From a virus, in IMG/VR virus record IMGVR_UViG_3300025785_000087, positions 1-25,062 of that record: a stretch of 25,062 nucleotides of DNA. One strand, written 5' to 3'. Both the position numbers and the translations under genes were made by a program. This document shows, piece after piece, positions 443 through 24,685 of the stretch; the first letter of the stretch is position 1, and each line of letters starts with the position of its first letter. Below the pieces are notes generated by a model that was not told the DNA's origin, searched no databases, and saw only the letters and a program-made list of their open reading frames with translations.

Positions 443-768
443 TTTGTAAGCCTTTCAATGTTGCGGTTTGTTGCTTGTTCTGTACGCCATGCTTCAAATC
501 TCATTTTAGCAGCTTCTAATTGCCATTTAAGCGCTTCCGTTTGTTCTGTTGCTGCGCCAATAGCTTTGCATAAATCTTGGTAGTCTTGCGAGCGATAAGC
601 CTCTCGTTCTTGAGCGCCCAGACTTTGTTCGTCTGTTTGCGCCATTTTAATCGCTTTAAGACTACTTTTAAAAGTTTCAAGCTCTGCCAACTCGCCCTTT
701 GCTTTTGCATATTTAGGCGCTGTTTTGAAGATGAAGTCAATTGCATCATTTGGGTCATATTCTTTCAT
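439..768 (-). CDS. conserved phage helical protein, function unknown
   Basis: A 109-residue, charged, largely helical protein with likely coiled-coil stretches at residues 18-45 and 70-100. It ends in a motif familiar from many phages, KMRFEAWRTEQATNR, with GAQEREAYRSQDY near the middle. Proteins of this type usually sit close to replication or recombination genes, but I know of no assigned activity. The 5' end overlaps the methyltransferase 3' end by 14 nt and the 3' end overlaps the next start as ATGA, so it belongs to the same polycistronic message. Confidence 0.6.
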   Translation of the reverse strand: MKEYDPNDAIDFIFKTAPKYAKAKGELAELETFKSSLKAIKMAQTDEQSLGAQEREAYRSQDYQDLCKAIGAATEQTEALKWQLEAAKMRFEAWRTEQATNRNIERLTK

Positions 769-1777
769 AATTGTTTATCCTTTCCCCTATCCAACGCATT
801 ACTGGCACAGCCATAGAATTTCCTAATGCTCGGTATCTATTTCCATCTGGACAATTTTCTTTTATGTTGGTGTAATCATCTGGAAAACCTTGCAATCTTT
901 CGCATTCAATTGGTGTCAGCCTACGAACCGCCATATTGTTATAACAACCAGACCTTTGACTAGTAGTTAAAGTATTAGATTGTTCATTTAAAAAATTCAT
1001 TTCAGCAGGTCTAGCATTTGTGTTAAATCCGTAAGAAACTGCAAATGTTTGAGTATGGTGACTTTGAACGGATGGCTGCGTTTTTTGCAATGTTGTTGCT
1101 ACATTAGTTGGTGTTGCATTAAATGTACCGTCTGCTCTACTGTAGTCGTTTGAAGTTGTTTGGAGACAGTTAGCAACGCTTGGTATAAAGTTTCCGGCAA
1201 TTTCTTGTTTCTCTTTGCGGCTCTGTTTAATATCCCCTTGCAAGCTTTCGGACTCAAATAATATTTTTGCGGCAGATTCCCAGTTTCCAAGACATCCGAC
1301 AACAAACACTCTTCTGCGTCTTTGGGCGACTCCGAAGTTTTGAGCATCAAGCACCCTGTAGGCCCACCCATAGCCGAGTTCGCCCAACGCCCCAAGGAAG
1401 GCCCCAAAATCCCTTCCGTTGCCACTACTGAGGACACCTGGCACATTTTCCCATATGCACCATTTGGGTCTAAATTTATCAAGAATTCCAACATAGGTAA
1501 GAGCAAGGTTACCTCTTGGGTCGTCAAGTCCTTTGCGTAAGCCTGCAACGCTAAATGATTGGCAGGGAGTTCCCCCGACCAAAAGTCCAACTGAGTCATT
1601 AATATTCCATTCTTTATATTTAGTCATATCACCAAAATTGGTGACTTGTGAATAGTGATGTGCAAGCACTTGGCTAGGAAATTTCTCAATTTCACTAAAA
1701 CCTACAGGCTTCCAACCCATGTGATGCCACGCAACGGTGGCAGCTTCAATACCAGAACAAACGCTTAAATAATTCAT
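755..1777 (-). CDS. DNA (cytosine-5-)-methyltransferase
   Basis: This enzyme transfers a methyl group from S-adenosylmethionine to C5 of cytosine in DNA. With the start at 1777 it has 340 residues and the standard C5 motif order: motif I SVCSGIEAATVAWHHMGW (5-22), motif IV GGTPCQSFSVAG with nucleophile Cys72, motif VI WENVPG (Glu110), motif VIII QRRRRVFVVG (152-161), then a target-recognition region of about 110 residues, and motifs IX/X LTPIECERLQGFP and GNSMAVPVMRWIG. The start at 1777 is chosen over an upstream in-frame ATG at 1825 because it forms an ATGA overlap with the stop of the 49-aa gene and motif I begins immediately. No restriction endonuclease lies nearby, so it looks like an orphan phage methylase protecting phage DNA. 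The recognition sequence cannot be read from the protein. Confidence 0.93.
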   Translation of the reverse strand: MNYLSVCSGIEAATVAWHHMGWKPVGFSEIEKFPSQVLAHHYSQVTNFGDMTKYKEWNINDSVGLLVGGTPCQSFSVAGLRKGLDDPRGNLALTYVGILDKFRPKWCIWENVPGVLSSGNGRDFGAFLGALGELGYGWAYRVLDAQNFGVAQRRRRVFVVGCLGNWESAAKILFESESLQGDIKQSRKEKQEIAGNFIPSVANCLQTTSNDYSRADGTFNATPTNVATTLQKTQPSVQSHHTQTFAVSYGFNTNARPAEMNFLNEQSNTLTTSQRSGCYNNMAVRRLTPIECERLQGFPDDYTNIKENCPDGNRYRALGNSMAVPVMRWIGERINNYERI

Positions 1778-1923
1778 TTGAGGTTCATCCATAGACCAAC
1801 TTGGGCGGCAGCGTAACCAATCCAAATTAATGCGTTACTGTTTGAACCTTTAAAGTATTGAGCCAATCCTACGACTAAATACCCAAGCCCTGTTGCTGCG
1901 ACAATGTATTTTTCAATATCCAT
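1774..1923 (-). CDS. 49-aa two-segment membrane protein
   Basis: Read directly: starts MDIEKYIVAATGLGYLVVG and ends AAAQVGLWMNLK. Two hydrophobic stretches (about residues 7-22 and 31-45) flank a short polar loop FKGSNSN, suggesting a two-pass inner-membrane hairpin. Support comes from a purine-rich GGGGAG/AAAGG stretch upstream of ATG 1923, and from its TGA overlapping the methyltransferase ATG as ATGA, which implies translational coupling. It overlaps the 3' end of the upstream gene by 49 nt in another frame. No function is recognised; holin-like or superinfection-exclusion roles are possible but unsupported. Confidence 0.6.
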   Translation of the reverse strand: MDIEKYIVAATGLGYLVVGLAQYFKGSNSNALIWIGYAAAQVGLWMNLK

Positions 1924-3751: not shown

Positions 3752-3961
3752 ATGGATGAAATGTACCAAGTAATGACTGAAATGGAGCAACGCCTTGAAT
3801 TGGCATTGTCAGACATGGAAAACGGTATTGACTTAACACAAGACGACATTGATGTAATTCGTGCAGCTTGTGGCAAACCAAGCAATAAACGCAACCAACT
3901 ATTGCAAACCGTATTTAACGATTTTGGCAAAGTATTTGGAGGTAACCATGCAACAGTCTGA
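3752..3961 (+). CDS. small acidic leader-operon protein
   Basis: First gene of the plus operon, 69 residues, acidic and Met/Glu-rich at the N-terminus (MDEMYQVMTEMEQRLELALS) with a helix DDIDVIRAAC in the middle. Ribosome site AAGGGGAAA lies five bases before the ATG. The 3' end overlaps the ERF gene start by 14 nt. Position immediately before the ERF gene suggests an early regulatory or recombination accessory protein, but no family is recognised. Confidence 0.6.
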   Translation: MDEMYQVMTEMEQRLELALSDMENGIDLTQDDIDVIRAACGKPSNKRNQLLQTVFNDFGKVFGGNHATV

Positions 3962-4385
3962 AAACATTGCAAATTTAGCCAAAGCGTTATCAACCGTACA
4001 GGGGAAACTTACCCATGCTAAAAAAGACTCTGCTAATCCTTTTTTCAAAAGTAAATATGCTGACCTTGAGTCTGTGTGGGATGCTTGCCGTCATTTGTTG
4101 GCTGACAATGGTTTGGCTGTGGCTCAATTCCCTGGGACTTATTCGGACTTAGACAAGTCTATGTCTTTAACAACCATTTTGACCCATGAGTCTGGAGAAT
4201 GGATTAGCCATGAAATGTCTGTACCTGTTACCAAAGCTGACGCACAAGGCGCTGGTTCGGCTTTGACATATATGCGTAGGTACGCATTGGCAGCAGTAGT
4301 AGGTGTAGTTCAAGCGGATGATGACGGCAATGCTGCCAGCAACCCACAATTTAAACAACCAGTAGTAAAACCAAAGGAAATCTAA
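3948..4385 (+). CDS. erf: ERF-family single-strand DNA annealing protein
   Basis: ERF proteins anneal complementary single strands during phage recombination and genome circularisation. The 145-residue product has the family landmarks: LAKALSTVQGKLTHAKKDSANP at the N-terminus (write-up abridged), FFKSKYADLESVW (32-44), and the diagnostic SALTYMRRYALAAVVGV (104-120) followed by the acidic DDDGN. The start at 3948 is preceded by GGAGG at the right distance; an upstream in-frame ATG (3861) lacks a site and would add sequence unlike the family. It is short, with little of the C-terminal tail of P22 Erf. It is coupled (TAATG) to the SSB-like gene and precedes an exonuclease, forming a recombination module. 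Confidence 0.88.
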   Translation: MQQSENIANLAKALSTVQGKLTHAKKDSANPFFKSKYADLESVWDACRHLLADNGLAVAQFPGTYSDLDKSMSLTTILTHESGEWISHEMSVPVTKADAQGAGSALTYMRRYALAAVVGVVQADDDGNAASNPQFKQPVVKPKEI

Positions 4386-5034: not shown

Positions 5035-5784
5035 ATGTCACAACATTGGTATTGCGCCCAAACTGGGCAACCCAGATATACAACTGTCAGTAAAAAAACT
5101 GGAAAAATCCGCAATACTACACTTAGAGATGCAAAAGCTGCGCCAGGAACGCTTGTACCAAGCGTTAGCACTATTACAGGACAATTATCGAAAGATGGTT
5201 TAAACACATGGTTTCAGACTGAAGCTATTTTGGCGGCAATGGAAAACCCAAGGCCGTTAGCTGAAGATAAAAAAGACTATGTAGCCAGAATACTGGATTT
5301 GGCTAAACAAAAGTCAAGAGAAGCGCAAGACCGAGGCACTCTTATACATGACTGGATAGAAGCGTTTTACAGCCAAGAATATGTGCCAGATATGCCTAGC
5401 TATGTCCGCACCGTAGATGACGCTATAACGGCTCATTTTGGGCATCAGCTATGGATTCCAGAGCAAAGCCTAGTAAACCAAGAAGGCTATGGTGGGCGGT
5501 GCGATTTATATTGCAAAGCAAGACATGACTTTTCAGGGGTCGTAATTGACTTTAAAACCACGCAAAAAAGCCCTGGTGAATTAACACCCTATTATGAGCA
5601 TACACTACAGTTAGCAGCTTATAGGGAAGTTTTAGCCCCTACAGCACGGTGCGCCAATGTATACATTAATGGTGACACAGGGGAAGTCGCCATATACGAG
5701 CATAAAGAGCAAGACTTAAAAGACGCTTATGAAGCCTTTTTATGCCTACTCAAACTTTATAAATTAAAGAATGGGTTAAACTAA
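5035..5784 (+). CDS. PD-(D/E)XK exonuclease (RecB/Cas4-like)
   Basis: A 249-residue nuclease of the PD-(D/E)XK superfamily. Landmarks in order: GTLIH (101-105) matching the GxxxH helix, GGRCDLYC with Asp157, VIDFKTT with Asp172 and Lys174 as the metal/catalytic pair, and LQLAAYREV (191-199) matching the conserved QxxxY motif. It would resect DNA ends to give substrate for the ERF annealing protein and SSB-like protein upstream, as in other phage recombination modules. Start at 5035 follows AAGGGGAAA (5022-5030). No Fe-S cysteine set of true Cas4 is evident. Confidence in the nuclease fold is high; polarity and substrate are unknown. Confidence 0.82.
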   Translation: MSQHWYCAQTGQPRYTTVSKKTGKIRNTTLRDAKAAPGTLVPSVSTITGQLSKDGLNTWFQTEAILAAMENPRPLAEDKKDYVARILDLAKQKSREAQDRGTLIHDWIEAFYSQEYVPDMPSYVRTVDDAITAHFGHQLWIPEQSLVNQEGYGGRCDLYCKARHDFSGVVIDFKTTQKSPGELTPYYEHTLQLAAYREVLAPTARCANVYINGDTGEVAIYEHKEQDLKDAYEAFLCLLKLYKLKNGLN

Positions 5785-7200: not shown

Positions 7201-7400
7201 ATGACCATATTTGGACTGCCTCTGGTACAGACATTACTATTCGTTGGCGTTTGCAAGGGTGGATTCCACCGTCAGAATTGCCAGAATACAAAGCTAAATG
7301 GAAATATTTTCAAGAAATGCCATTACGAGGCTTAGACGACAAAGCCGTAGAAGAATACGAAAGAGTAATGAAAAAGGCTAAAGTCGTTAGAATTCGTTAG
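7197..7400 (+). CDS. conserved phage protein (W-x-P-P-S-E type)
   Basis: A 67-residue protein with the pattern IWTASGTDITIRWRLQGWIP followed by PSELPEYKAKW. Short phage proteins with this RW...GW.PPSE...KW signature are common in Gram-negative phages; function unknown. It is the last plus-strand gene and its 3' end overlaps the convergent endolysin by 4 nt, with no terminator between the two operons. Confidence 0.6.
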   Translation: MNDHIWTASGTDITIRWRLQGWIPPSELPEYKAKWKYFQEMPLRGLDDKAVEEYERVMKKAKVVRIR

Positions 7401-7918
7401 CTATTCTTTGCCATGTCAAGGGCTTCGGTTTCTTCTTTGTCTACACGAGAAAGCCAGCCCTTACCAAAGATTTCAAATGTCTTTAATGAACGGTAGTAGT
7501 CCCTGCGTGATTCTGAGAATTTATTGATAAGAGTTGCACAATTACTGGCGGAAATAAGGCTTCTTGTTGCTGGGCCAATAACTCCGTCAGGTACGCAACC
7601 AATAGCTGACTGAAGCAGCTTAACGCTTCTACCTGGCCCTGCATTAACTCCCATTGAAAAGACAACAAAGTCGAGTCCCCTAGGTAATACTTCGCCATAG
7701 CAAGGCCTCCAATATTTCTGTTCATACAAAGGTGCTACATCGTCTGCTGTGAGGTTTCTAAGAGTGTCTACAGGGTGACCTACATATTCTTCCCAAACAG
7801 CCTTGGTAACGCCTAAATTGGTTTCGCCGCCTGGGTCGCCTTCAAGTCCTTTTGCGCCAGTCCAACCACCTTCGGACTTTAAAACTAATGCTAAACATGG
7901 TTTAAAGTTATTTTCCAT
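7397..7918 (-). CDS. endolysin, GH108-type muramidase with C-terminal PG-binding domain
   Basis: A 173-residue peptidoglycan hydrolase that cleaves the glycan backbone at the end of infection. Residues 9-45 show the GH108 signature LKSEGGW with catalytic Glu16, then GDPGGETNLGVTK. The second half has the PG-binding-3 type pattern FSMGVNAGPGRSVKLLQ and DGVIGPATRSL. There is no signal peptide or signal anchor, so it needs a holin for release. It overlaps the Rz gene by 11 nt and ends the late operon. Confidence 0.9.
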   Translation of the reverse strand: MENNFKPCLALVLKSEGGWTGAKGLEGDPGGETNLGVTKAVWEEYVGHPVDTLRNLTADDVAPLYEQKYWRPCYGEVLPRGLDFVVFSMGVNAGPGRSVKLLQSAIGCVPDGVIGPATRSLISASNCATLINKFSESRRDYYRSLKTFEIFGKGWLSRVDKEETEALDMAKNS

Positions 7919-20106: not shown

Positions 20107-20415
20107 TTATACGCTTGCAGCAGAGAACCAAGCGCAATCACCAGAAGCCAAAGCAACGCCAGGTGAAGTGTAAGCACCACCAGTAGCAGCTACTTGGAAA
20201 GTAGTGGTGTTGATAGCGCAAACAGTTGTAGAAGCAGAGATAGCAGCACCAGCTTGTGCGAATACATAACGCAAGCCTGTGTTACCAAAAGTTTCAGCAC
20301 CTAATGGGCCAAATGCTGGGATTACTTCAGCAGTTGAACCGTTAGTTAAAGCAAAATCAACTGGGGTTACACCGTTAAGGTTTACGCCAGCGATAGGGAG
20401 AGTACTATAAGCCAT
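20107..20415 (-). CDS. capsid decoration-like protein
   Basis: A 102-residue, Ala/Thr/Gly-rich small beta protein: MAYSTLPIAGVNLNGVTPVD, ALTNGSTAEVIPAFGPLGAE, RYVFAQAGAAIS and an end GDCAWFSAASV. Small proteins of this composition right after the major capsid gene typically decorate or stabilise capsids. Its own strong ribosome site (AAAGGAAAAAATC-ATG) and flanking RNA hairpins suggest separate, high expression. Confidence 0.6.
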   Translation of the reverse strand: MAYSTLPIAGVNLNGVTPVDFALTNGSTAEVIPAFGPLGAETFGNTGLRYVFAQAGAAISASTTVCAINTTTFQVAATGGAYTSPGVALASGDCAWFSAASV

Positions 20416-20472: not shown

Positions 20473-21453
20473 TTAGTTGGTCAAAATGCCTTGTAGGAAG
20501 CGGTTAGAAGTTGTCAAGTTACCAGCCCAACCGTATAACTTCACGATTGCGTCTTGGTTAATTGCTTGACGCTCGCCACCGATAGGTACAAAGTTACGCT
20601 CTTTGTGTGGGCGTAGGAAAATGTAATTGGTGTTCAAGAAGTACATTGTGTTAGAAGGCTGCTCGTTACCATAACCGCCACCCAATACAACATCAGCAGA
20701 TGTACCGCCACCGTAGAATTTCATAGAGGCGAAACCAGCAGAACCGCTTTCCTCAGAAGTAATACGCTGAATAGCTTGCAATGACTGTACATACAGGCTG
20801 TAGAAGTTAGTGTCAGCAACAATCAAGTCAGCCTTGTCTGTGCCACGAACCAACTGGAGTGCTGTAGAGGTCATCTTAGCTTGAATGTTGGTAGCTGTGA
20901 TGGTTGTACCAGTTGTAGCAGTATTCTGCCAAAAAGCCCAGTTAGCAGCGTTAATACCACCGTAAGTACCAGAAGTAGGAGTTGCGGAAACCGCAGCAGC
21001 CAAACCATCCAAGTTCTTACCACCGTTACCTGTACCGTCTAGGAATAGGTCACCAGAAATACGGTTTAGCAAACGAGCTTCAGAAACTTGCATACGACCA
21101 TCCAAGAGGTCAATGATTGCTTCTTTGCTTGAGTTTTGCAACATTTCTAAGCCAGACATTGTAACTGCGTCAGCGTACTGAGCAATTTTATACTGGGCAG
21201 CAGAAATTGGGCTATCTGGAGAAATATTCAATACTTCGTAACCGCTATAAGAGTTAGCGTTGTTAGTATTTGGGTCGTTGTACATGATTTCTTCCAAAAT
21301 CACATTACCACCTGAGAATGGGCGTACATTGCCCTTCTTGTCCAAATGCATCAAAATTGCATTGTTTTGTGTTAAGTTGTCTGCCAATTCACCGCTACGA
21401 CTTTGAATAGTGGTAGCGATAATATCGGTAATTGCGCTATTAGCAAATGCCAT
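20473..21453 (-). CDS. major capsid protein
   Basis: A 326-residue protein I recognise as a major capsid protein of an HK97-fold phage family: NNAILMHL-type start (LTQNNAILMHLDKKGNVRPF), SGGNVILEEIMYND, SGYEVLNISPDSPISAAQYK, VTMSGLEMLQNSSKEAIIDL, NRISGDLFLDGTGNGGKN and GINAANWAFW. Length is typical. It follows an acidic scaffold gene and precedes a decoration gene, the expected order. Its ribosome site is AAAGGATATATC-ATG. Confidence 0.92.
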   Translation of the reverse strand: MAFANSAITDIIATTIQSRSGELADNLTQNNAILMHLDKKGNVRPFSGGNVILEEIMYNDPNTNNANSYSGYEVLNISPDSPISAAQYKIAQYADAVTMSGLEMLQNSSKEAIIDLLDGRMQVSEARLLNRISGDLFLDGTGNGGKNLDGLAAAVSATPTSGTYGGINAANWAFWQNTATTGTTITATNIQAKMTSTALQLVRGTDKADLIVADTNFYSLYVQSLQAIQRITSEESGSAGFASMKFYGGGTSADVVLGGGYGNEQPSNTMYFLNTNYIFLRPHKERNFVPIGGERQAINQDAIVKLYGWAGNLTTSNRFLQGILTN

Positions 21454-21478: not shown

Positions 21479-22540
21479 TTAAACCCTGCCGCCCATTTCA
21501 CCCATTTGGGCTGCAATAAGCGAGCGTCTATCCTTCGAATCTACCTTGTTCACCACACCGCTAGGAGTAACGGATTTGGGGCTTACTGCGGCAGCTTTGG
21601 CTTTAGCTACTTGCTGTGCTTTAGACGCTTCTTTTTTAACTTGGTCAAGGAGTCGTTCTTGCTCAAGTTTAAAGACTTCATCATTCATACGCACCGCTTT
21701 GGCATAAGCCGATTCGAGGTCTTGGGCTAATCCACGCTCAAGTAGTTGAGCCATATCTTCCCTTACCACCTCAAAGTGCGGAAACTTCTCCGCATTACTT
21801 CTAACTCTTTCAATCTCGCCCATAAGACGAGCTTGTTCCTGTTGTTCTTTCCAGCCTCGCACCTGTTGTACTTCATTTTGCAAAGCTGCTAGTTGCTGGT
21901 TCAACGCATAAGACTGTGGGTCTTGGTACTGTTGTGTGGGAGCAACACTTTCGCCTAATTGTATTCCATAATCTTGTGCAAGTCTATGAAAAAGTTGGAC
22001 TCTTTGCTCATAAGGTGCTTTTGACAAAATCATGTGCGCTCTGCCAAGGTTATTAATCCATGCGGCAGGATGAATGTTTTGTTGTTGCAACTCTGGCATA
22101 AATGGGGCAATGGCTTCTACCAAAGACTTAGCATTGTCAGCTTCTTGCTTATAGGTAGAAACGCCTTTTTTATACTCAGACTCACGCTGGTTAGAATATT
22201 CTGCTAATTTGAGTGCTTCTTCAGGGCTTAGTTGCTGACCTGTTGTCAGTTTGTCCCAAATTGGCAAATACTCTTTTTTCCAAGTTGTAGGGCGTGGAAT
22301 AGCAGGTTTTACTTCCTCCTGCGGTTTCTCATCCGACTCCTCAGATTGAGCAGCTTCAACAGCTTCGGCAGGTTTTTCGCTATCTTCCTCGCTAGTTTCA
22401 ACTTCGTTGGACTCCTCGGAAACAGGTTCACTTTCAACCTCCTCTGCTTCCACAGGTTCTTGTACAATTTCGTTCTCCTCTGGTTGCTCTAAAGCCTCAT
22501 TCATTGCTGCTTCTAAAATACTTCTGCGGTCATCACTCAT
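21479..22540 (-). CDS. capsid scaffolding protein
   Basis: A 353-residue protein with a strongly acidic Glu/Pro/Ser-rich N-terminal third (residues 15-78), then PTTWKKEYLPIWDKLTTGQQ, long helices (ALAEYSNQ-like, QLAALQNEVQQVRGWKEQQE) and a basic C-terminal region (KDRRSLIAAQMGEMGGRV). Acidic head, helical coiled-coil middle and basic C-terminus immediately upstream of the capsid gene is the scaffold layout: the C-terminus binds coat protein during prohead assembly and the protein then leaves. Confidence 0.85.
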   Translation of the reverse strand: MSDDRRSILEAAMNEALEQPEENEIVQEPVEAEEVESEPVSEESNEVETSEEDSEKPAEAVEAAQSEESDEKPQEEVKPAIPRPTTWKKEYLPIWDKLTTGQQLSPEEALKLAEYSNQRESEYKKGVSTYKQEADNAKSLVEAIAPFMPELQQQNIHPAAWINNLGRAHMILSKAPYEQRVQLFHRLAQDYGIQLGESVAPTQQYQDPQSYALNQQLAALQNEVQQVRGWKEQQEQARLMGEIERVRSNAEKFPHFEVVREDMAQLLERGLAQDLESAYAKAVRMNDEVFKLEQERLLDQVKKEASKAQQVAKAKAAAVSPKSVTPSGVVNKVDSKDRRSLIAAQMGEMGGRV

Positions 22541-22560: not shown

Positions 22561-22938
22561 TTATCGGTAACTGAGCTTTTCATAAGCCATTTCAGCAATT
22601 TGACGCTTACGCTTCTCGTTGCTTTGACGGCTTAACTCAATCTTCTTGTGCTGCATTGGTACATCATTTCCTAACTCAATCATTCGGTGCTGTTTTAGGT
22701 GGTTTCTATGCTTGTTACGGCTGTCAATCCAACTGCCGTCTATTTGGCTTACATAACCACCAATATCAGACTGCACCATAGGCGCTTCTCTGAATGTCAT
22801 TTCTTGCTTTTCTTTCCATGCTTGTTCGGCTTCAGGGCTACCAAGGGTATATCCCCAAAACTCTAGGTAATAGTCTTTGTCAGATTGTTTAGCTTGCACA
22901 TGGTTGCCTTCGCTATATCCACATTTAGGGCAAATCAT
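22561..22938 (-). CDS. CxxC virion-cluster protein
   Basis: A 125-residue protein from ATG 22938, with GGAGG upstream and a TAATG overlap with the glycosyltransferase stop. It starts MICPKCGYSEGN, an N-terminal CxxC knuckle. The middle, GGYVSQIDGSWIDSRNKHRN followed by HLKQHRMIELGND, is a pattern well known in phage proteins encoded between portal and scaffold ('YVSPV.G..I.SR..R...LK......'). The basic C-terminal tail is helical. Function unknown; one CxxC pair alone would need dimerisation to hold a metal. Confidence 0.6.
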   Translation of the reverse strand: MICPKCGYSEGNHVQAKQSDKDYYLEFWGYTLGSPEAEQAWKEKQEMTFREAPMVQSDIGGYVSQIDGSWIDSRNKHRNHLKQHRMIELGNDVPMQHKKIELSRQSNEKRKRQIAEMAYEKLSYR

Positions 22939-23843
22939 TACATCCTCCTTAATAAATCGGGAATTTTGTCCCACTCATTTGGTTTGATTGCTACTACAGA
23001 GTCATACCACTTTCCATGCTTCCAACGCCAGCAAACATAAGGGTCGTCAGGAAGCAACATAATGCACTTAACGCCTAAAGCGCCAGCAAGATGGGCTGTG
23101 CCTGTGTCTGGGCAAATAACGCCACGCATAGACTTCATGTGTCTTGCGGTTTCATACCAGTTGTTTTTCCAGCCGTCTGGCAATGGAATAAAAATGTCGT
23201 CACCATTGTAATTAAGGCTGTATGCGTCAGCACCTAAAAGCCTACGCATTTCTTGGACTGGAATAGACTTGGCATAGTGCAAATGGCCTTTAGAAGCCAT
23301 CCAATTAACGCCTATTTTGCGCTCAATATTAGAGGGTTCAGCGTCTAAATAACCTTCGCTACCTACAATCTTATTAAGACCTACAGGAAATAATTGGCGC
23401 ACATGGGCAGGTGAGTGCATAGCAAAATATGGCAGGGACATTGACCCAACCCAATAGTCTGCATTGAGAATTACAGGGTCATTAAAATCATTAGACAAAT
23501 GGTCAATACACTCCATCTGACCCAATAACAAATGTAGGGAAAAGTGTTGAAAAACATAGACTTCCTTTGCGCCCCATGCTTTAAGCATAGGCAAAAATCG
23601 TGACATTTGAATGATGTCGCCATAACCTTGCTCCATTTGTACTACTATGGTTTTCCCTAATAGTCTTTCGCCTTTCCATGTTGGCGCTGGCAAATGTTTG
23701 TCGTGACTAGCAGAAATAGCTTGTTTTACATCAGGGTGGTAACGGTTCTCGTATAGCCTAAAGCCTGGCAATAAGTGTCCAGAATGTAGAAGGTCGAGTG
23801 ATTGTTTGTAAAGTGAGTAAGGGCTTTGTGGCAGTTCGGTCAT
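22938..23843 (-). CDS. GT9/heptosyltransferase-like TPR-type glycosyltransferase
   Basis: A 301-residue GT-B-like enzyme of the type usually fused to TPR repeats in bacteria. A single TPR-like helix pair opens it (LLHSGHLLPGFRLYENRY, 18-35), followed by the linker LPAPTWKGERLLGKTIVVQM, then EQGYGDIIQMSRFLP (71-85), the nucleotide-sugar fold signature, and CPDTGTAHLAGALGVK (244-259) with a C-terminal WRW (272-274) and WD. These match GT9-related proteins in which the D-T-x-x-x-HLAGALG motif binds the donor. Donor and acceptor are unknown: host LPS, a virion protein or a fibre are all possible. It sits between two structural genes, coupled to both by stop/start overlaps, so it is made with the virion. 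Confidence 0.82.
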   Translation of the reverse strand: MTELPQSPYSLYKQSLDLLHSGHLLPGFRLYENRYHPDVKQAISASHDKHLPAPTWKGERLLGKTIVVQMEQGYGDIIQMSRFLPMLKAWGAKEVYVFQHFSLHLLLGQMECIDHLSNDFNDPVILNADYWVGSMSLPYFAMHSPAHVRQLFPVGLNKIVGSEGYLDAEPSNIERKIGVNWMASKGHLHYAKSIPVQEMRRLLGADAYSLNYNGDDIFIPLPDGWKNNWYETARHMKSMRGVICPDTGTAHLAGALGVKCIMLLPDDPYVCWRWKHGKWYDSVVAIKPNEWDKIPDLLRRM

Positions 23844-24685
23844 AAGAGCATTAGTAGAGCTTCTTCATCATCCATTTCGGCTTTGAATTTAGCGTCTAGA
23901 ATCGCAAGGGCAGTCATTGTTTCTGCCAATACTTTTCTGTGGGCTATCGCTTGGTTTAATTCCTTTTCTTGTCTGTCAAGATTGGCGATAACCGCTTCTA
24001 AGCGTGTGACTTCGACTGACGGTGTATCAATCCTAATCTCTTGTTTTAATTGTACTTTATTTTTCTTAGTTTGTTGCTTTGGCGCAACAGGGTCAATCAA
24101 ATCCCTAAAGCGTTTCTTACGAGCTTCTGCATCTGCTCTGCGAGCTTCAATAAGTTTTTCTTCCGCTGCCCTACGCTTACGGTCTAATGCTTTAGCTCTT
24201 TCAATTTCTTTCTTAGTAAAGCCATCGTGCATGTCCATTGGCTGACCGCCAGTCACAGTACCTATAAAAAGGGCTGTGTCATTGTCATCAATGGTGTAAA
24301 TTTGGGCTGTTTCAAGTGCTTGAGCCTCAAAATCGGCTGTATCTGTGCCGTCTGTGGCGCTAATATAGGCGCTTACAAGGTTTTGTGCGGTGAATGTGGC
24401 GGTGTCAGTACCATCTGTGGCTGAAATCGTGCCTGTGACCGCTACAGCGCCTTCTAAATCGGCTGTGTCATTGCTATCTGTTGCTTGAATATAGCCAGAA
24501 ACAAGCTCTTGGGCGTAAATCGTACAAGTATCTGTACCGTCTGTAGCAGAAATAGTGCCTGTAATGGCAACTTGACCTGTAAGGGTCGCAGAATCGTTGC
24601 TATCTGTTGCGTAAATCGTGCCAGTTATTTTCGGCTGTTGTATGTCCGAAATTGGCTGGTTTGATATGGGGGTAAAACCCAGCAT
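23840..24685 (-). CDS. repeat-domain plus coiled-coil virion-cluster protein
   Basis: A 281-residue protein in two parts. Residues 20-145 are six 21-residue repeats with the core ATDGTDTA (for example ITGTISATDGTDT), likely a beta-strand stack. From about 150 comes a highly charged helical coiled coil (KKEIERAKALDRKRRAAEEK, LEAVIANLDRQEKELNQAIA). I have seen the same pairing of 'ATDGxDTA' repeats and charged coil in phage structural clusters, function unknown. The stop overlaps the glycosyltransferase start (ATGA); the ATG is one base after the stop of the fibre-like gene. Confidence 0.65.
   Translation of the reverse strand: MLGFTPISNQPISDIQQPKITGTIYATDSNDSATLTGQVAITGTISATDGTDTCTIYAQELVSGYIQATDSNDTADLEGAVAVTGTISATDGTDTATFTAQNLVSAYISATDGTDTADFEAQALETAQIYTIDDNDTALFIGTVTGGQPMDMHDGFTKKEIERAKALDRKRRAAEEKLIEARRADAEARKKRFRDLIDPVAPKQQTKKNKVQLKQEIRIDTPSVEVTRLEAVIANLDRQEKELNQAIAHRKVLAETMTALAILDAKFKAEMDDEEALLMLL
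24251..24628 (-). repeat. six tandem 63-bp (21-residue) coding repeats
   Basis: Six consecutive units of exactly 21 residues with no gaps. Units 2, 4 and 5 carry ATDGTDT, units 1 and 3 ATDSND, unit 6 the degenerate TIDDNDT. The units alternate in their first residues (ITGT or VSGY type), suggesting a two-unit higher period. Confidence 0.85.

Follow-up and report, generated by a model that had tools for sequence, protein, structure and literature searches.

A GT9-like glycosyltransferase in the head operon of Mx8-like podoviruses and its allele linkage to a putative capsid decoration protein

Results

The window, i.e. the whole IMG/VR virus fragment of 25,062 bases analysed here, encodes a major capsid protein (MCP) that is about 50% identical to the MCPs of Mx8, BUCT555 and ppBjS10J-1, and its gene order is that of the Mx8-like podoviruses. 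On its sequence, the window phage is a member of this family. Its head region comprises the following features:

20107..20415, minus strand: dec102, a 102-aa putative capsid decoration protein directly after the MCP gene (allele linkage; weak fold matches)
20473..21453, minus strand: major capsid protein (phrog_9953, E 6.6e-98; 50% identical to Mx8)
21479..22540, minus strand: scaffold-position protein (p47 position of Mx8; role suggested by position)
22561..22938, minus strand: CxxC protein (p46 position of Mx8), likely start ATG 22938, 125 aa (sequence, synteny)
22943..22949, minus strand: AAGGAGG, an SD-like motif in the last codons of the glycosyltransferase gene, serving the CxxC ATG (read from the sequence)
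22938..23843, minus strand: GT9-like GT-B glycosyltransferase (GT), 301 aa, ATG start (ORF list, Pfam, AlphaFold2 model)
23840..24685, minus strand: repeat and coiled-coil neighbour (rep), with N-terminal 21-residue repeats and a C-terminal coiled coil ending in DDEEALLMLL (sequence)

Among the relatives, the order portal, variable fibre module, coiled-coil neighbour, GT, CxxC protein, p47-like protein, MCP and dec102 is stable, with adhesin/fibre genes lying directly upstream, between the portal and the coiled-coil neighbour. Mx8, BUCT555 and ppBjS10J-1 have the order portal-p46-p47-MCP in common with the window, and BUCT555 and ppBjS10J-1 also carry a GNAT gene downstream; they differ from it in that they yield no match to GT, have neither GT nor the coiled-coil neighbour between portal and p46, and encode another protein after the MCP. 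Elsewhere, the window encodes a C5 cytosine methylase (755-1825, minus strand), an ERF recombinase (3861-4385, plus), a PD-(D/E)XK nuclease (5035-5784, plus) and a GH108 endolysin (7397-7918, minus).

A first-pass annotation had described a GT9-like enzyme between a repeat protein and a CxxC protein, coupled to both, and the ORF, the fold and both overlaps were indeed found. At the rep/GT junction, the last rep codons overlap the GT start in an ATGA, while GT and CxxC overlap in a TAATG with the AAGGAGG located inside the C-terminal GT codons. Since it fits this conserved SD motif and the TAATG overlap, ATG 22938 is most likely the CxxC start, and not GTG 22974, from which a 137-aa ORF (22561-22974) would result. 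Apparently start-less CxxC genes in relatives turned out to be an alignment artefact.

The window GT scores 19.5 bits against Pfam Glyco_transf_9 (PF01075; E 6.5e-4, residues 231-263), which is below the curated cut-off of 22; of the 38 family members searched, 31 reach E<=0.01 against the same model (best E 2.1e-5). No relevant match was obtained in direct sequence searches of the PDB with GT or its profile, and none for GT in PHROGs. The AlphaFold2 model of GT (pLDDT 87, pTM 0.87) adopts a GT-B fold, with the Veillonella parvula GT9 protein 3tov (Z 16.2), WaaF (1psw, 15.8), WaaC (15.4) and TibC (14.7) as the closest structural neighbours. Four motifs are invariant in 38 diverse members, namely E71-Q-G-(Y/F)-G-D76, D246-T247-x-x-x-H251, C271-W-R-W-K275 and W279-Y-D-S282, so that the catalytic-type motifs, the loss of which in relatives had been named as a refuting outcome, are retained. 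From the alignment offset, we take D76 to occupy the position of the catalytic Asp D13 of WaaC, and D246/H251 presumably represent the D-x-G-x-x-H donor motif of the GT9 family. GT thus shares with WaaC/WaaF and 3tov the fold (Z 15-16), the Asp at the D13 position and a motif like D-T-G-x-x-H, and differs from them in being only 12-14% identical, scoring below the Pfam cut-off and residing in a phage structural operon. TibC is a protein heptosyltransferase that acts on protein in the cytoplasm; its identity to GT is about 10%, and it is larger and an iron-containing dodecamer (PDB title). Taken together, GT is most likely an active, cytoplasmic GT9-like enzyme that would use a nucleotide-sugar donor.

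The bacterial homologues of GT are TPR-GT9 proteins with about 30% identity over most of the GT domain; the whole phage GT aligns with them, and the C-terminal glycosyltransferase layout is the same. The earlier label "TPR-type" hence fits these relatives, yet not the phage enzyme itself, which at 301 aa lacks their TPR substrate-binding domain and gave no TPR match in the Pfam scan. A characterised protein that is similar in architecture is FlmG of Caulobacter, a flagellin O-glycosyltransferase in which a TPR part that binds flagellins is combined with a GT-B domain of ~288 aa (PMC7591256). Flagellin genes were present within the fetched flanks of 4 of 84 bacterial loci. Distant phage homologues (S-SRM01, BUCT-ZZ01, AG-345-E08) adjoin tail-fibre or adhesin-like genes. 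In AG-345-E08 (L138, 7158-19364) and S-SRM01 (L224), they cluster with RCC1-like repeat proteins and 2OG-Fe(II) oxygenase-like proteins, as well as with sulfotransferases and other glycosyltransferases.

Relatives of GT are encoded at more than 450 IMG/VR loci. When distinct relatives were sampled by their capsid protein, 78 of 84 had kept GT, directly before CxxC in 76 and with an HNH-type insertion between the two genes in two more; in the remaining six, which have no GT, the coiled-coil neighbour abuts CxxC. By reading, the insertions are HNH-type endonuclease ORFs (L266:7041-7523; L278:7000-7482). Among 112 GT loci, CxxC follows immediately downstream in 110, and the other two end inside GT. 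The dN/dS of GT is 0.05-0.1 in most comparisons, similar to that of MCP. Given the number of relatives, this selection and the synteny with CxxC, the GT ORF is not a chance reading frame. In four loci (L015, L069, L071, L074), GT is 63% identical to the window GT with saturated dS and the flanking genes are mostly 76-98% identical; as read from these comparisons, the GT allele has been swapped there by recombination.

Across 98 distinct relatives, GT distances correlate with those of dec102 at a partial r of 0.53 (given CxxC, scaffold, MCP and p207), a value reached in none of 500 permutations (maximum 0.069), while CxxC, scaffold and MCP, all of which lie between the two genes, reach a correlation of only 0.24-0.30. 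In a set of 91 loci, the partial r is 0.51, and 0.52 after thinning, with no other of the 21 gene pairs as high; restricted to the largest GT cluster, it is 0.57. At third codon positions the linkage is weaker (0.26), and the dec102 distances derive from ~100 aa. For rep, GNAT, p300, p396, p588, tail299 and fib276, partial r values with the GT alleles are near or below 0. In matched phages of similar background (MCP differing by <=6%), dec102 diverges by 12% if the GT allele is the same, by 33% if it is different and by 47% if GT is absent in one of the two; as the pairs are not independent, these values are only descriptive.

Within dec102, the signal lies in residues 45-102 (0.56) as opposed to residues 1-44 (0.20), and within GT it is not sharply confined to the acceptor-side domain (0.22 vs 0.13). 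There are exceptions, namely the GT-negative L091, whose dec102 is close to that of GT-positive relatives (0.15), and L259, which is GT-positive with a GT-negative-like dec102. Arg49 of dec102 (window 20107-20415) is present in 109 of 112 GT-positive phages and 1 of 7 GT-negative phages. A role as strict GT marker is broken by L123, L116, L259 and L091; it is possible that Arg49 is a contact or modification site.

The dec102 gene directly follows that of MCP. All fold matches of its product are low (best Z 6.3), with decoration or head proteins making up many of the highest-ranking ones: residues 45-102 match, at low Z, phi29 head fibre gp8.5 and proteins of HFTV1, Sf11, Pam3, YSD1, SHP and lambda (gpD). 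These matches make a decoration role likely, with a predicted location on the capsid. Profile comparison of dec102 with what Mx8, BUCT555 and ppBjS10J-1 encode after their capsid genes revealed no similarity, and neither the CxxC protein nor dec102 found a match when the phage collection was searched by tblastn.

The partners originally suggested for GT behaved differently. The 21-residue repeat protein had been named as acceptor, and co-occurrence of the two had been proposed as a check, but the repeat array is missing in 72 of 119 distinct GT-positive neighbours, GT-negative phages keep the neighbour, and its alleles do not track GT (partial r -0.05); as a general acceptor, the array is therefore rejected. 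The coiled-coil neighbour has two alternative N-termini among relatives: either the array of 21-residue ATDGTDTATF-type repeats or, in many of them, an AFQxNAFQ-type sequence in its place. At the other end of the protein, several GT-less phages retain a DDEEALLxLL-like tail. For the fibres, likewise named, the one tested (fib276) has no allele linkage to GT (partial r -0.02) and is not supported as partner; the upstream fibres are too variable to compare. Nor is there support for GNAT, which had been suggested to form a decoration system with GT: it occurs with and without GT (72/9 vs 4/2), is present also in Mx8-like phages that have no GT, and shows an allele partial r of -0.05. Since GNAT persists in GT-negative phages and there is no allele tracking, neither the repeat protein nor a GNAT plus GT pair is supported.

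At 77 of 202 GT loci examined (about 40%), neither ATG, GTG nor TTG precedes the conserved N-terminal core; four further loci stand beside these, three of which have only a doubtful internal TTG. In a first set of such ATG-less loci, one has to go 13-110 codons into GT to reach a canonical start; L030, L044, L056, L081, L109 and L123 are examples of ATG-less loci. Each of the 55 distinct ATG-less junctions contains an ATT in the GT frame, located 2-4 codons behind the stop of the upstream gene, and in 54 of them an SD-like GAGG, GAGGA, GGAGG or AGGAG precedes it at a distance of 3-9 nt. Three sequences have lost the usual ATT, and in these another lies exactly one codon further on. The triplet has been kept although the codons of the upstream gene would have been free to vary: on the tree, 18 changes fall on the first base of codon +5 and two on its third base, and Ile at this position is almost always ATA, whereas other genes use ATA for 16% of their Ile; TTA encodes Leu +6 in 54 of 55 cases, while the third base of Leu +8 changed 23 times. 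All other genes checked in the ATG-less loci have ordinary starts. The missing canonical starts together with a conserved ATT behind an SD-like motif imply AUU initiation, and the ATG-less GT genes thus appear to start at AUU. The window GT itself starts at ATG, so this reading does not apply to the window copy.

One could instead imagine that a -1 ribosomal frameshift yields the ATG-less GT fused to the coiled-coil protein encoded upstream, as the GT frame is indeed -1 relative to the upstream gene and the overlap is about 8 codons long. However, the conserved NTA-TTA and its vicinity contain no slippery heptamer, conservation concerns A-TT-A and the SD-like motif, a lost ATT is replaced one codon later, and the window clade has a normal ATG. 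We consider frameshifting very unlikely, and a rep-GT fusion was rejected for want of a slippery site.

Discussion

From the allele linkage and the decoration-like fold matches, dec102 emerges as the best candidate acceptor or partner of GT, and we propose that GT glycosylates dec102. According to this model, GT would be made late, together with the head proteins, and would attach a sugar from a host nucleotide-sugar to dec102, so that the heads of the Mx8-like podovirus family would carry glycans. Exchange and evolution would affect GT and dec102 jointly, as matched partners, whereas the intervening genes would go with the phage backbone. For a large clade, GT would be translated from an AUU behind an SD-like sequence in conserved C-terminal codons of the upstream gene, an arrangement that probably holds enzyme levels low compared with those of the structural proteins. 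We give this mechanism as a whole a probability of about one half. More tentatively, and with somewhat less confidence, we would describe the two as a dedicated enzyme-substrate pair that sugar-coats phage heads, consisting of a TPR-less GT9-type enzyme and a decoration protein that are exchanged together, with the enzyme throttled by AUU in a large clade.

The linkage could, however, reflect a shared host, which is the main alternative to enzyme-substrate pairing, or selection on both proteins without contact. The main rival explanation holds that, late in infection, GT modifies the LPS core or another surface glycan of the host and that its alleles follow the host; such a modification might, for instance, reduce re-adsorption of the progeny or keep competitors out. 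It would account for the fact that the closest solved structures are the cytoplasmic LPS heptosyltransferases WaaC and WaaF, for the recombinational replacement of GT in the four loci described above, as expected for host-interaction genes, and for the other sugar genes near the S-SRM01 homologue. It sits less well with the finding that the GT alleles are linked to those of a protein encoded next to the capsid gene, and to none of the fibre, tail and GNAT genes tested, with a late structural operon in which translation overlaps, and with the fact that FlmG, the characterised TPR plus GT protein, modifies a protein (PMC7591256). From our point of view, modification of a host glycan is unlikely, while still the most serious competitor of dec102 glycosylation.

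Less probable again is that GT glycosylates another virion protein, such as a fibre, a neck protein or the coiled-coil neighbour, and that dec102 is linked to it via the same host or head state. The neighbour would be well placed, as its coiled-coil part adjoins GT and is translationally coupled to it, and so would the adhesin/fibre genes just upstream; the dispensable repeat array and the missing allele linkage of both neighbour (-0.05) and fib276 (-0.02) argue against such targets. That GT glucosylates or hypermodifies phage DNA is the least probable of all, and we would be surprised if it held. DNA modification is a common role of phage glycosyltransferases, and the window does encode a C5 cytosine methylase, but the location in a late structural operon and a GT9-like fold close to heptosyltransferases speak against it, no hydroxymethylase or base-hypermodification gene was found among the Pfam-scanned window ORFs, and it gives no reason for the linkage to a head protein. 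Of the original proposal, the general idea that virion parts rather than DNA or the host are the target is thus favoured by GT being a core gene of the structural operon under capsid-like purifying selection and by the dec102 linkage, while the acceptors it named are not.

A virion-decoration system of GT and GNAT had also been regarded as not described before. In so far as the source cited here covers it, glycans are carried by capsid and tail-tube subunits of mycobacteriophages (Freeman et al., 2023, cited in PMC12619734), so that phage virion glycosylation as such is known. The present case would differ from these other phages in that a separate decoration protein, allele-linked to the enzyme, is proposed as acceptor.

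Starts at AUU are rare, with infC and pcnB as the cases in E. coli (PMC9410913), and in Staphylococcus aureus the AUU start of cvfC1 gives ~10% of the AUG output (PMC13009471). A conserved AUU start and low expression are common to these three genes, and cvfC1 also has an SD motif (PMC9410913; PMC13009471). Unlike in these genes, the SD-like motif and the AUU of the phage GT lie within the final stretch of the gene upstream, which overlaps GT. Our literature search for an AUU-started phage gene found none, and as far as this search shows, the apparent AUU starts of GT would represent the first family-wide natural case in a phage. Gene callers limited to ATG, GTG and TTG misplace or miss the starts of genes of this type.

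For phage virion glycosylation, enzyme and acceptor have seldom been identified from sequence. For a very common freshwater phage group, with the more than 450 loci mentioned above, the present analysis provides a named enzyme and a named candidate acceptor, and it does so via allele linkage and not gene adjacency. If true, this would explain the role of a conserved "metabolic" glycosyltransferase in a head operon, and suggest that glycans on phage heads are of importance in lakes, and not only in animal hosts.
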